From Actinomycetales bacterium (lineage in GTDB: Bacteria; Actinomycetota; Actinomycetes; Propionibacteriales; Nocardioidaceae): 12,512 nucleotides of DNA. The stretch is taken from positions 1-12,512 of the forward strand of contig JAAZCT010000182.1 of assembly GCA_012513165.1 (NCBI GenBank), in the 5' to 3' direction. The first letter of the stretch is position 1. Every line of letters starts with the position of its first letter. The position numbers were made by a program, and so were the translations under genes. The notes under the pieces were generated by a model. The model was given only the letters and a program-made list of their open reading frames with translations. It was not told the DNA's origin and did not search any database. This document shows positions 3,131 to 10,083 of the stretch, one piece after another.

Positions 3131-3139
3131 TGTGGACAA
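3131..3139 (-). promoter_or_regulatory. Single DnaA-box match between rpsF and ssb
   Basis: TGTGGACAA on the plus strand reads TTGTCCACA on the minus strand. This is the form of the DnaA box favoured in high-GC actinobacteria. It lies in the 98-bp rpsF-ssb gap (3113-3211), 72 bases before the ssb start. A 9-mer can occur by chance, but the position before ssb and the cluster before dnaB make it worth noting. The rest of this gap holds only a weak inverted repeat, TGAGGA (3162-3167) with TCCTCA (3182-3187). Confidence 0.4.
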
Positions 3140-3760: not shown

Positions 3761-3997
3761 ATGGCTAAACCCATTGTTCGGAAGCCAACCAAGAAGGGCA
3801 ACCCTCTTGCTGCTGCCGGCGTAACAACCATCGATTACAAAGACACTGCGCTTTTGCGCAAGTTCATCTCGGACCGCGGCAAGATCCGCGCTCGTCGAGT
3901 GACGGGTGTCTCCGTACAGGAACAGCGTCAAATCGCTAAGGCAATCAAGAATGCCCGCGAAATGGCATTGCTCCCCTACACGTCCAGCGGACGCTGA
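3761..3997 (+). CDS. rpsR: 30S ribosomal protein S18, cysteine-free (zinc-independent) form
   Basis: This 78-residue protein contains [40 protein letters not shown] and the end [15 protein letters not shown]. All are diagnostic for S18, the partner of S6 on the 30S platform. There is no cysteine at all. Where zinc-binding S18 has a C-x-x-C near the N-terminus, this one reads NPLAAAGV, and the later NCVQHQR position reads VSVQEQR. It is therefore a C-minus S18 at the standard locus. AAAGGA (3747-3752) lies eight bases before the ATG. Only 14 bases separate its stop from rplI, so it belongs to the operon. Confidence 0.97.
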
Positions 3998-4011
3998 GAA
4001 AGGGAATCACC

Positions 4012-4458
4012 ATGAAGCTCATTCTCACGCACGAAGTATCCAACCTTGGCTCGCCCGGCGATATCGTCGAGGTCAAGGACGGCTACGGACGTAACTTCCT
4101 GCTGCCACGCAACTTCGCCATCCGGTGGAGCAAGGGCGCAGAGAAGCAAGTTGACTCGATCAAGGCAGCACGCAATTCGCGCGCTGTTCACGATCTGGAA
4201 ACAGCACAGTCCATCAAGGGCAACCTTGAAGCCAAGGCAATCAACGTCCCAGTTGTTGCAGGCCCAGGCGGACGCCTGTTCGGTGCTGTCACTGTTTCCG
4301 ATATCGCTGCCGCTCTTGCAACTGCAGGAGTCGACGTGGACAAGCGTCGCATCGAGGTGGGTAACCCCATCAAGGCGCTTGGTGCACACAAAGTCAGCGT
4401 CAAGGTACACCCAGAGGTGCAAGCCCAGGTTGCCTTGAACGTCGTCGCAGCCAAATGA
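4012..4458 (+). CDS. rplI: 50S ribosomal protein L9
   Basis: At 148 residues it is the normal length for L9. The N-terminal domain starts [20 protein letters not shown] and runs on through [15 protein letters not shown], the L9 signature that binds 23S rRNA at the base of the L1 stalk. A central helix (about 42-75) links to the C-terminal domain with [17 protein letters not shown] and [23 protein letters not shown] (3999-4004) precedes the ATG by seven bases. Its TGA overlaps the ATG of the following lipoprotein gene (ATGA, 4455-4458), which suggests coupled translation. A terminator-like hairpin begins ten bases after the stop. Confidence 0.97.
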
Positions 4459-6924: not shown

Positions 6925-8238
6925 CTAGCGGCTATGTGCGCCAAGGACGAGCCAGTCGTCTGTTCGTTGCCGCAACCACAAGGTCACGAACCGTGCCAGC
7001 ATGAAGGCAGCGTACGCAATCCAGATTGAGACAAAGCCGGCACCGGTCACCGATACCAGCAGGGCAAGCGGAATATACGCGACCAGAGTGAATACGCCGG
7101 CCCACGCCAAGAAGCGGCCGTCGCCAGCGCCGATCAGCACCCCGTCCAGCACGTAGACGACTCCGGAAATCGGCATCGCGATCGCGATCACGATGAGTGC
7201 CGGGGTGGCCTGCGACTGGATCGCGGGGTCGCTGCTGAATATCGAGGGGATCGCTATTGATCCGAAGCCGATGATCCCGCCCAAGAGCAGGCCGCTGGCC
7301 CAACCCCAGGTGATAAGTCGAGCCGTGATGGTTCGGGTCCTCGTGAACTCGCCCGCGCCTAACGCGTGACCTGTGAGCGTCTGGCCGGCGATCGCTATCG
7401 CATCCAAAGCAAACGCCGTCACCATGACAACGGTCATCGCAATTTGGTGCGCCGCGAGAGAGGCGTCTCCGAGATTGGAGGCCAGCCAGGTTGCGATCAG
7501 GAATACCGCGCGGAGTGTCGCGGTGCGAATGATGAGGGCGAATCCGTCAATGGCGGCGGCCAAGACGGCGCGGAGATTCGGCCAGGTGGTGATTCCGACG
7601 TGAGCGGCGCGGCGGGCCACGACACCGAGGAGCCAGAATGCGGCCGACCATTGGGCAAGCACGAGACCCCACGCCGCGCCAGGCAGGCCCAAGTTAAAGG
7701 TGAAGACGAGAGCCAAGGTTGCACCGACGTTGACGACATTGGCGGAAATCATCACGATGAGCGGTGTGCGCAGATCGAGGACTCCGCGTAGGGCCCCTGT
7801 GGTTGCCATCACGATGAGCGCAGCAGGTATGCTCAACGCGGCGACTTTGAGATAACTCTGTGCCAATTCGTGGACCAGGTCCGAACTCGAGAAGATCCCC
7901 GCGACTGGACCTGAGACCAAGTACACGAGCCCAGCTAGGGCGGTGCCGAGTCCAGCCGCGAGCCAGATTGCGCCCATCGCGCTGGACATGGCGGCCGAGG
8001 GCTTGCCGGCACCTTGCTGTCGTGAGACCAGCGCTGTGCTCCCGTAGGCCAAAAAGATGCACAAACCGATGAGGCCCGAGAGCACTGTTGAACTTGCGCC
8101 AAGTGCGGCTAGCTCGGCGCGACCAAGCCGTCCGACAATGGCGGTATCGGCCGCCAACATGAGCGGTTCGCTGATCAAAGCAGCGAAAGCGGGGACGGCA
8201 ATAGCGAGGATAGTTCGATTGAACCCCGTCCGTCCCAT
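6925..8238 (-). CDS. MATE family efflux transporter (DinF-like)
   Basis: From the ATG at 8238 this gives 437 residues with about twelve membrane segments in two similar halves. Near the N-terminus, FNRTILAIAVPAFAALISEP and ADTAIVGRLGRAELAALGAS are the hallmark of DinF-type MATE proteins. The Asp in ADTAIVG is the conserved cation-site region. The second half has ALDAIAIAGQTLTGHALGAG, the matching repeat. MATE proteins expel cationic compounds using a Na+ or H+ gradient; the substrate here is unknown. A MATE gene between rplI and dnaB is also what I recall in Streptomyces, so this is the conserved neighbour. An in-frame GTG at 8289 would add 17 residues, but they are polar and would run into a DnaA-like site. 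The ATG has no ribosome site; TATTGT six bases upstream (8245-8250) would suit a leaderless message. Confidence 0.9.
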   Translation of the reverse strand: MGRTGFNRTILAIAVPAFAALISEPLMLAADTAIVGRLGRAELAALGASSTVLSGLIGLCIFLAYGSTALVSRQQGAGKPSAAMSSAMGAIWLAAGLGTALAGLVYLVSGPVAGIFSSSDLVHELAQSYLKVAALSIPAALIVMATTGALRGVLDLRTPLIVMISANVVNVGATLALVFTFNLGLPGAAWGLVLAQWSAAFWLLGVVARRAAHVGITTWPNLRAVLAAAIDGFALIIRTATLRAVFLIATWLASNLGDASLAAHQIAMTVVMVTAFALDAIAIAGQTLTGHALGAGEFTRTRTITARLITWGWASGLLLGGIIGFGSIAIPSIFSSDPAIQSQATPALIVIAIAMPISGVVYVLDGVLIGAGDGRFLAWAGVFTLVAYIPLALLVSVTGAGFVSIWIAYAAFMLARFVTLWLRQRTDDWLVLGAHSR

Positions 8239-8337
8239 GGGTACACAATAGATGGTCGCTTCGGAGGGTCGTTTTGTCGACTTATCCACCGAAGCCTGTG
8301 AAGAACTTTATCGGTTCACACGAGGTATATTTTTATT

Positions 8338-8346
8338 TTATCCACA
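8338..8346 (+). promoter_or_regulatory. Perfect DnaA box TTATCCACA, abutting the A/T tract
   Basis: It is an exact match to the consensus DnaA box and overlaps the right end of the A/T run 8326-8341. This arrangement of box next to melting tract is what gives the region its origin-like look. Confidence 0.75.
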
Positions 8347-8458
8347 GCGCGTGAACAGAGTATCCGCAGGTCAGGAGACACTGTGATCTGTGTTACATGC
8401 GCGTACCCACAGGCATCTCCACAGGCTGTGCACATGTCAGGTCGGCGTTGCCCACAGG

Positions 8459-8467
8459 TTATCCACA
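8459..8467 (+). promoter_or_regulatory. Perfect DnaA box TTATCCACA, dnaB-proximal
   Basis: This is the second exact consensus match. It lies 11 bp after the weaker site TTGCCCACA (8448-8456) and 192 bp before the dnaB start. The two adjacent sites on one face of the helix would favour cooperative DnaA binding. Confidence 0.75.
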
Positions 8468-8658
8468 GGTTCAGACCCTCATGCTGGGCTTGAAAGTAGA
8501 CGGGGCTCTAACGGATCATCTATCGTCATTCATGGTGCCCGAAGCGGCAGGTTTTTCTTAGGCAAATTCTGCAGCCGCCTCACTTGTCGGTGGCACCCGA
8601 TAGATTGCGTTGCAAACGAAATCATGATTGGAATTCTCGGGCTTTGAAGGGAGCCGAC

Positions 8659-10083
8659 TTGAGCGTCGCTGACCTCTACGAACCTGCCGAACCGATGGAA
8701 CACTCCTCGGGCGGTAGCGCCTTCGCCCCTCCCCAAGATATGGCTGCTGAGCAAAGTGTGCTTGGTGCGATGCTGTTGAGCAAGAATGCCATCGACCCGG
8801 CCGCCGATGCGCTCGAGGGCCGCGATTTCTACCGCCCCGCCCACGAGACCATCTTTGATGTGATATGCGATTTGGCATCGCGCGGCGAGCCTGCTGATGC
8901 CATCACTGTCGCAGCGGAGCTAACCCGGCGCGGTGACATCGGAAAAATTGGCGGCGCTGCCTACTTACACGACCTAGTTCAGGGAACGTCGATTGCTGCG
9001 AACGTCGATTACTACGCCGATATCGTTCACGAGAAGGCTGTCCTTCGGCGCCTGGTTTCGGTGGGCCAGCGCATTGCCCAGCTCGGTCAAGCGGGGCAAG
9101 GCGACGTCGCCGAGATCGTCGATGCTGCACAAGCCGCCGTACTTGACGTGGACGGCGCAAGCAATAAAGAGGATTACCGTCTCTTGTTTGATGTCGCGGC
9201 TTCGGCCATCGACGAACTTGAACAAATCGAACTCCGTACCGGAGACGTCCAAGGCATCATGTCCGGTTTCCCAGAACTTGACCGCCTCACGACGGGCTTC
9301 AAGTCAGGTCAAATGATCGTCATTGCAGCACGGCCTGGTGTGGGCAAGTCGACGCTCGGGCTGGACATCGTGCGCAACGCGGCTATTCGCCAAGGTAAGA
9401 CGGCGGCGTTCTTCTCCTTGGAAATGACCGCGTCTGAAATAGCGATGCGTTTGCTTTCCGCAGAAGCACGCGTGGCGATCAACCATATGCGCGGTGGCAC
9501 GATGGGTACCCGCGAGTGGACGGCGATCTCGGCGGCTATGAACAACGTCCACGCGGCCCCGATCGTGATTGACGATAGCCCCAACATGACGATGCCGGAG
9601 ATTCGCTCCAAGGCTCGCCGGATCAAGAAGCAACACGGCCTTGATCTGATTGTGTTGGACTACCTCCAGTTGATGACCTCGGGCAAGCGCGTCGAGAGCC
9701 GCCAAGTCGAAGTGTCGGAGTTCAGCCGCCAGATCAAGTTGCTGGCCAAGGAACTAGAGATCCCGGTTATCGCGATCAGCCAGTTGAACCGTGGTTCCGA
9801 GCAGGGCACAGACAAGACACCGCAGCTTTCGCAGTTGCGTGAATCTGGCTCGATCGAACAAGACGCCGATATCGTGATGCTGCTGCACCGTCCTGACGCC
9901 GCGGGCGCAGGTGAATCCAATCGCCCGGGCGAAGCCGACATCATTGTGGCCAAGAACCGTTCGGGACCGGTCAATAAGGTCGACGTTGTGTTCCAGGGCC
10001 ACTATTCGAAGTTTGCGCCTGCTGCCCGAGACGTCGAGCCACCCGACGGTGGCGGTGGCGTCAGCGCGTCCGACTTTGCTTGA
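8659..10083 (+). CDS. dnaB: Replicative DNA helicase DnaB
   Basis: This 474-residue protein is the hexameric helicase that unwinds the fork. The N-terminal domain (about 24-165) contains PPQDMAAEQSVLGAMLLSK and DFYRPAHETIFDVICDL. The RecA-like motor domain (about 195-460) has Walker A ARPGVGKST (224-232), Walker B IVLDYLQL (331-338), SEFSRQIKLLAKEL, SQLNR (374-378) and LRESGSIEQDAD (393-404). The Walker A and Walker B regions are uninterrupted, so there is no intein, unlike several mycobacterial DnaB proteins. The TTG start is chosen because AAGGGAG (8647-8653) lies five bases upstream. An in-frame TTG at 8584 would add 25 unfamiliar residues, and an ATG at 8695 would also be possible. It is the last plus-strand gene and converges on the peroxidase gene. 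Confidence 0.96.
   Translation: MSVADLYEPAEPMEHSSGGSAFAPPQDMAAEQSVLGAMLLSKNAIDPAADALEGRDFYRPAHETIFDVICDLASRGEPADAITVAAELTRRGDIGKIGGAAYLHDLVQGTSIAANVDYYADIVHEKAVLRRLVSVGQRIAQLGQAGQGDVAEIVDAAQAAVLDVDGASNKEDYRLLFDVAASAIDELEQIELRTGDVQGIMSGFPELDRLTTGFKSGQMIVIAARPGVGKSTLGLDIVRNAAIRQGKTAAFFSLEMTASEIAMRLLSAEARVAINHMRGGTMGTREWTAISAAMNNVHAAPIVIDDSPNMTMPEIRSKARRIKKQHGLDLIVLDYLQLMTSGKRVESRQVEVSEFSRQIKLLAKELEIPVIAISQLNRGSEQGTDKTPQLSQLRESGSIEQDADIVMLLHRPDAAGAGESNRPGEADIIVAKNRSGPVNKVDVVFQGHYSKFAPAARDVEPPDGGGGVSASDFA

Follow-up and report, generated by a model that had tools for sequence, protein, structure and literature searches.

A same-facing, phased row of DnaA boxes before dnaB, kept across an actinobacterial class, as a likely site of DnaA control over the helicase gene

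The intergenic gap in front of dnaB, the gene of the replicative helicase, holds a row of DnaA boxes that face the same way and keep a class-wide phase of 10.95 bp. The row has a counterpart in all but one of 90 class genomes, and DnaA molecules probably line up on it head to tail in a filament that would control dnaB transcription. The row was found in a window of 12,512 nucleotides from an Actinomycetales bacterium, namely contig C27, which belongs to a genome assembly of 1.50 Mb that is 82% complete and split into 352 contigs. Among the genes on C27 are rpsF, ssb, rplI, dnaB and, on the minus strand, one for a MATE transporter, and the boxes occupy the MATE–dnaB gap at about 8240–8658 (Table 1). 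An Rfam search of the window returned no match, and a scan for sigma-70-like promoters near dnaB gave a single consensus match, at chance level. An 85-residue ORF that runs across the array (8390–8647) is unlikely to be a gene: alignment of the genus gaps shows indels there, and what is conserved is the box blocks.

Table 1. Features of the MATE–dnaB gap and its flanking genes, in window coordinates; rows are those of the alignment of 30 genus gaps.
Feature	Position	Strand	Remark
Divergent MATE-family transporter gene	6925..8239	-	Predicted start at 8239; the ORF could begin at 8289
Near-box TTATCCACC	8282..8290	+	Not retained as a box in relatives
A/T run of 16 bp	8326..8341	.	Longest run only 4–10 bp in 29 relatives
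Perfect DnaA box TTATCCACA	8338..8346	+	Columns of its TCCACA part are conserved; GTCTCCACA is the most frequent row (14/30)
Degenerate in-register box GTATCCGCA (eighth)	8360..8368	+	Opens the conserved CGCAGGTCAG block
Box GTACCCACA	8403..8411	+	TTGTCCACA in 19/30 rows
Box ATCTCCACA	8415..8423	+	Commonest forms in relatives TCGTCCACG and TCGTCCACC
Box CTGTGCACA	8426..8434	+	Most conserved box; identical in 27/30 rows
Box TTGCCCACA	8448..8456	+	TTTTCCACA in 19/30 rows
Perfect box TTATCCACA	8459..8467	+	In register; not a box in most genus rows
Conserved TAnnnT-type elements	8519..8606 (columns about 8519–8536 and 8585–8606)	+	Predicted dnaB promoter region
dnaB, replicative helicase	8659..10083	+	TTG start placed at 8659 by aligning relatives; the ORF opens at 8584

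An earlier note on this DNA had pointed to seven DnaA-box-like 9-mers of one orientation upstream of dnaB, at spacings within one base of multiples of 11. All seven are present on the plus strand, and their start-to-start steps (56, 65, 12, 11, 22 and 11) agree with the described spacing; steps of 11 and 12 are interrupted by larger gaps of 22–65, so the row is not unbroken. The length of the A/T run was also given correctly, but its last 4 bases fall inside the first perfect box, so the two do not merely abut. The stretch 8240–8583 (344 bp) is the richest in boxes of the whole window, and its counts (2 perfect, 4 with at most one mismatch, 11 with at most two, 9 on one strand) were never reached in 1000 dinucleotide shuffles. 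The excess over the whole window is modest, with 44 boxes at up to two mismatches against 31.7 expected, a count that 5 of 200 shuffles reached. Over the genome as a whole, single boxes show no enrichment (TTNTCCACA occurs 23 times, the reversed word 19 times), and at least two of these 23 fall within 200 bp of each other only in the dnaB gap and at one place on contig C111. It is clustering, not single-box abundance, that stands out.

Conservation in the genus was assessed in an alignment of 30 gaps, own included, drawn from the 35 of 37 genus genomes with a DnaB match (G001 and G002 had none). Here and in the surveys below, a near-box is TTNTCCACA with at most one mismatch. At least one near-box precedes dnaB in all 30 genus loci examined. 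Between 8327 and 8467, the mean frequency of the commonest base is 0.84 in box columns and 0.58 in linkers; it is 0.40 in sampled columns from the rest of the gap. The boxes at 8338, 8403, 8415, 8426 and 8448 lie on conserved columns (means of 0.84–0.99), and in most genus rows those at 8282 and 8459, the latter being the second perfect box, are not retained as boxes. Alignment of the gap in relatives, a check proposed in the earlier note, thus upholds the five central boxes but neither these two nor the A/T run. Conserved elements outside the row were also seen. The sequence at 8274–8281, TTGTCGAC, lies beside the near-box at 8282, and the palindromic TTGTCGACA-type element that spans 8274–8282 occurs as the exact 9-mer in 16 of the 30 rows, as close variants in several more, and before dnaB in four of five genomes of another genus of the family. 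The non-box block GCAGGTCAG (8366–8374) roughly equals the boxes in conservation; GCAGGTCA is present in 30/30 genus gaps and, in the class survey described next, in 30/90 gaps on the dnaB strand versus 5 on the other. We know of no factor for the GCAGGTCAG/GCAGGTCA block.

The survey was then widened to the source's own class, presumed to be Actinomycetes, to which CrgA and the gene order point. Outside the genus, 111 class genomes had a match to the DnaB N-domain, and 90 of them, from 29 families, were analysed, a selection made before any upstream DNA was examined. In the 600 bp before DnaB, the mean number of near-boxes is 3.84 per genome, compared with 0.285 in shuffles. Near-boxes number at least one in 89 of the 90 genomes and at least three in 70, leaving 20 with fewer than three, one of which has none; a perfect box is found in 61. 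Their orientation is biased, with 264 on the dnaB strand and 82 on the opposite one. When each family is represented by one genome, 20 of 29 have at least three. When the core of the genus array is used as a 56-bp profile, 68 of the 90 gaps outscore both their eight shuffles and the opposite strand, and the remaining 22 do not. The distance from array to dnaB differs among families, so that an activator of fixed geometry fits less well.

Several controls bound this signal. Upstream of recA, among the best 30 of 58 genomes, near-boxes average 0.87 versus 0.21 in shuffles (at least one in 17/30, at least three in 2/30); real upstream DNA therefore carries some excess, far below that at dnaB. A DnaB scan of named genomes, taken as an outgroup, returned mostly clostridial and other loci, 78 of 80 being usable. 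Among these, 67 loci with titles of other phyla average 0.70 near-boxes against 0.60 shuffled (at least three in 2/67), and 11 with actinobacterial titles average 3.64, with 0–3 in those whose class is unclear or is another actinobacterial one. In other classes of the phylum, sampled as one genome for each of 39 families with the dnaB start approximated from the domain match, the mean is 1.21 versus 0.29 shuffled; seven have at least three, and the strands are balanced (22 plus, 25 minus). By these counts, the oriented array characterises chiefly this class, possible examples elsewhere being few, and it is, judged by its distribution, ancient.

The phase of the row is likewise a property of the class. 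Same-strand spacings peak at 11, 12, 21, 44, 45, 54, 64–66, 109–110 and 130. The best period is 10.90 bp over the 90 genomes and 10.95 bp with one genome per family, and none of 2000 position-jitter nulls reaches either. Giving each family equal weight yields a period of 10.95 bp (bootstrap 10.9–11.05, 26 families); it is still 10.95 when computed from spacings of 40–140 bp (10.9–11.0) or 60–200 bp (10.85–11.05), and the weighted score at 10.5 is about zero or negative. None of 60 permuted consensuses gave at least 20 spacings; that control is thus uninformative, and the jitter null and the bootstrap carry the register claim. The view that spacings follow 11 rather than 10.5 bp, drawn earlier from this one gap, accordingly holds class-wide. 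Its corollary, that only neighbouring boxes share a face of the helix, is sound for relaxed DNA but probably does not suit DNA that is wrapped around a DnaA filament. Right-handed wrapping lengthens the repeat seen at the protein surface. The DnaA oligomer is described in a review as a right-handed helical filament with the DNA wrapped outside (PMC4285127). A period of 10.95 bp would be what such a filament selects. The register could also be partly inherited from ancient 11–12-bp duplications.

A partly comparable layout is that of the low-affinity arrays of E. coli oriC, R5M-tau2-I1-I2 and C3-C2-I3-C1, in which weak 9-mers next to stronger boxes face the same way exactly two bases apart, giving 11 bp (PMC4451416). 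Those arrays lie inside an origin with an unwinding element, whereas the dnaB array lies outside oriC, before a gene, and has some larger gaps. The closest published relative is mycobacterial. Hicks and co-workers mapped DnaA by affinity purification and recovered from M. smegmatis homologs of the same five sites (PMC7738170). DnaA binding upstream of dnaB, located by affinity mapping and ChIP-seq, is reported for M. tuberculosis as well as M. smegmatis, and in a DnaA mutant with weaker binding at that site dnaB is under-expressed (PMC7738170). That site, in the Rv0057 region, shares with the present array its position relative to dnaB, its DnaA boxes and, presumably, its class; the present array has the sequence features of such a site, conserved DnaA boxes directly upstream of dnaB. 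The two differ in kind of evidence: binding was measured in mycobacteria (PMC7738170), and geometry and breadth were measured here. In Caulobacter, which belongs to another phylum, dnaB is reported to be in the DnaA regulon and has predicted DnaA boxes upstream (PMC8203912).

The earlier note had left three options for the cluster: a second origin-like site, a titration site and a DnaA switch for dnaB. The last is the best supported, both by conservation upstream of dnaB in genus and class and by the reported mycobacterial binding (PMC7738170), and the switch itself would be of the form proposed here. A strong box would nucleate DnaA, and weaker boxes two to three bases apart would then fill cooperatively. 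The filament, placed upstream of the promoter, would raise dnaB expression while active DnaA is plentiful. By analogy with one mutant of another genus, activation of dnaB is more likely than repression. Because dnaB lies 27–80 kb from dnaA in relatives, replication would also reach the array early, which would let it take up additional DnaA.

A second dense cluster lies on C111 (locus L013, 4005–4084, boxes at 4022–4081), between crgA (3768–4004, PF06781) and a rhomboid-like gene. Since crgA is rv0011c (PMC3989709), this position matches the mycobacterial Rv0010c–Rv0011c site, and the cluster is likely its counterpart, as judged by gene context. Rv0010c–Rv0011c is an extra-origin DnaA site, to which the box cluster in the equivalent gap 3' of crgA corresponds here; it is a palindromic pair, as opposed to the same-facing row at dnaB (PMC7738170). 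Hicks and co-workers saw no obvious counterpart of it in other species (PMC7738170). We surveyed up to 400 bp after crgA (less in 2 of 30) in the best 30 of 59 class genomes, with the own genome added for geometry. At least one near-box follows crgA in 27/30, at least two in 24/30 and none in 3/30, with a mean of 2.67 against 0.16 shuffled. The geometry is shared: plus to plus at 12–13 and plus to minus at 10 or 23. Inverted pairs 10–11 bp apart occur in 12 of 31 loci, own included, and in no shuffle. Among the 12 class genomes in which dnaA could be placed, dnaB and crgA lie on opposite sides of it in eight (directly in G069, G073, G099, G106 and G107; if the contig is circular in G060, G082 and G110). 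They lie on the same side in four (directly in G109; if circular in G078, G090 and the own-genus genome G005), two of which, G078 and G109, have no near-box at the crgA site. A placement on either side of oriC is therefore not a fixed property of the two sites. Within the window itself, a perfect TTGTCCACA occupies 3131–3139 on the minus strand, between rpsF and ssb. A near-box lies within 150 bp before ssb in 13 of 19 genus loci (11 of these have it on the minus strand, at −75 to −97) and in 2 of 11 loci in other families of the order, counts that carry no shuffle control; by position, ssb may also be a DnaA target.

The strongest rival is that the array is mainly a sink, titrating DnaA near oriC, with its placement before dnaB incidental. 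We consider this unlikely, and a titration role is in any case compatible with a dnaB switch. Streptomyces reportedly has the DnaA-box clusters H69, H24 and D78, described by Smulczyk-Krawczyszyn in 2006. Initiation control has been reported for DnaA-box clusters of Streptomyces and B. subtilis, which lie near but outside oriC, as the dnaB array does (PMC4585315, PMC5295017), and their reported effect is to restrain initiation (PMC4585315). The placement expected of a sink is present: dnaB starts 27–80 kb from dnaA in 12 genus genomes, within 53 kb in 11 of them, on the upstream side of dnaA and oriented away from it. These are the 12 of 25 genus genomes with both genes on one contig (G005, G012 and G017, with the genes at opposite contig ends, were left out); in the own genome the genes are on separate contigs. 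The conserved cluster that adjoins crgA also fits a sink. Against it, all but one of the 90 class genomes retain the association with dnaB, and orientation and register are constrained beyond what a pure sink needs. Moreover, a strong effect in B. subtilis required the removal of all six clusters, and elsewhere the same paper states that clusters with significant roles were not identified there (PMC5295017).

Another rival, which is improbable, takes the row as a target of some other regulator, or as part of the control of the divergent MATE gene, with a likeness to DnaA boxes that reflects descent alone. The thought arises from the best-conserved 9-mer, CTGTGCACA, which is a poor DnaA-box match (2 mismatches to TTGTCCACA, 3 to TTATCCACA) with a palindromic TGTGCACA core, and from the non-box block CGCAGGTCAG, which is about equally conserved. 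The near-boxes found throughout the class are nonetheless of DnaA type, and DnaA is reported to bind the corresponding mycobacterial place (PMC7738170).

Still less probable is a second or relic replication origin, made of DnaA boxes and an A/T melting tract, for which the boxes and the 16-bp run overlapping a perfect box would speak. DnaA is encoded on contig C156, in the usual origin order rpmH-dnaA-dnaN-recF-gyrB-gyrA (the other names were read from translations and order), so that dnaA and dnaN, whose location the earlier note wished to know, stand apart from the dnaB contig. Their intervening gap is of oriC type (locus L012, 5706–6045, 340 bp), with three near-boxes in mixed orientation, and over 30 genus and order loci, own included, this gap averages 3.77 near-boxes in both orientations. 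The gap of the own genome contains no perfect TTNTCCACA, which makes the dnaB array closer to consensus than oriC, and no A/T run longer than 6. Since the A/T run before dnaB is private to this genome among the 30 aligned gaps, no melting tract is conserved. The dnaB gap thus has the box cluster of an origin and lacks both a conserved A/T unwinding element and the dnaA–dnaN placement, and the second-origin option is not supported. Further near-boxes lie between rpmH and dnaA (L012, 4101–4165; ATATCCACA, CAATCCACA and TTTTCCACA, on the minus strand), which is the place of the mycobacterial rpmH–dnaA DnaA site. The GC content is 0.586 on the dnaB contig and 0.534 on the dnaA contig, and the DnaB and DnaA identities to relatives are alike; mixed binning is possible. 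Finally, chance clustering in a single genome, to which the mere two perfect boxes, the modest window excess and the near-equal genomic counts might be ascribed, is refuted by the class survey and has next to no probability given zero of 1000 shuffles and conservation over 29 families.

DnaA control of dnaB from the phased row is thus the preferred reading. A DnaA site before dnaB is of a known kind. Among the open-access titles and abstracts listed, we found no account of its conservation throughout the class, of the register or of a paired site at crgA, PMC7738170 being the nearest. A broader reading, which we put forward tentatively, is that the class keeps two ancestral DnaA control loci near oriC, the phased dnaB array and the inverted-pair crgA site, through which DnaA activity would be coupled to the supply of helicase and to cell division. 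The register of 10.95 bp, longer than the 10.5 bp of relaxed DNA, would then be an evolutionary imprint, over up to 200 bp, of right-handed DNA wrapping on a double-stranded DNA-bound DnaA filament. The timing of initiation is less understood in actinobacteria than in E. coli. An array kept class-wide before dnaB would be one concrete regulatory link from initiator to helicase, and its register may make it possible to read from sequence how DnaA filaments are shaped on double-stranded DNA away from origins. Two of the extra-origin mycobacterial DnaA sites reported by Hicks and co-workers (PMC7738170) are suggested to be ancestral to the class rather than mycobacterial oddities.
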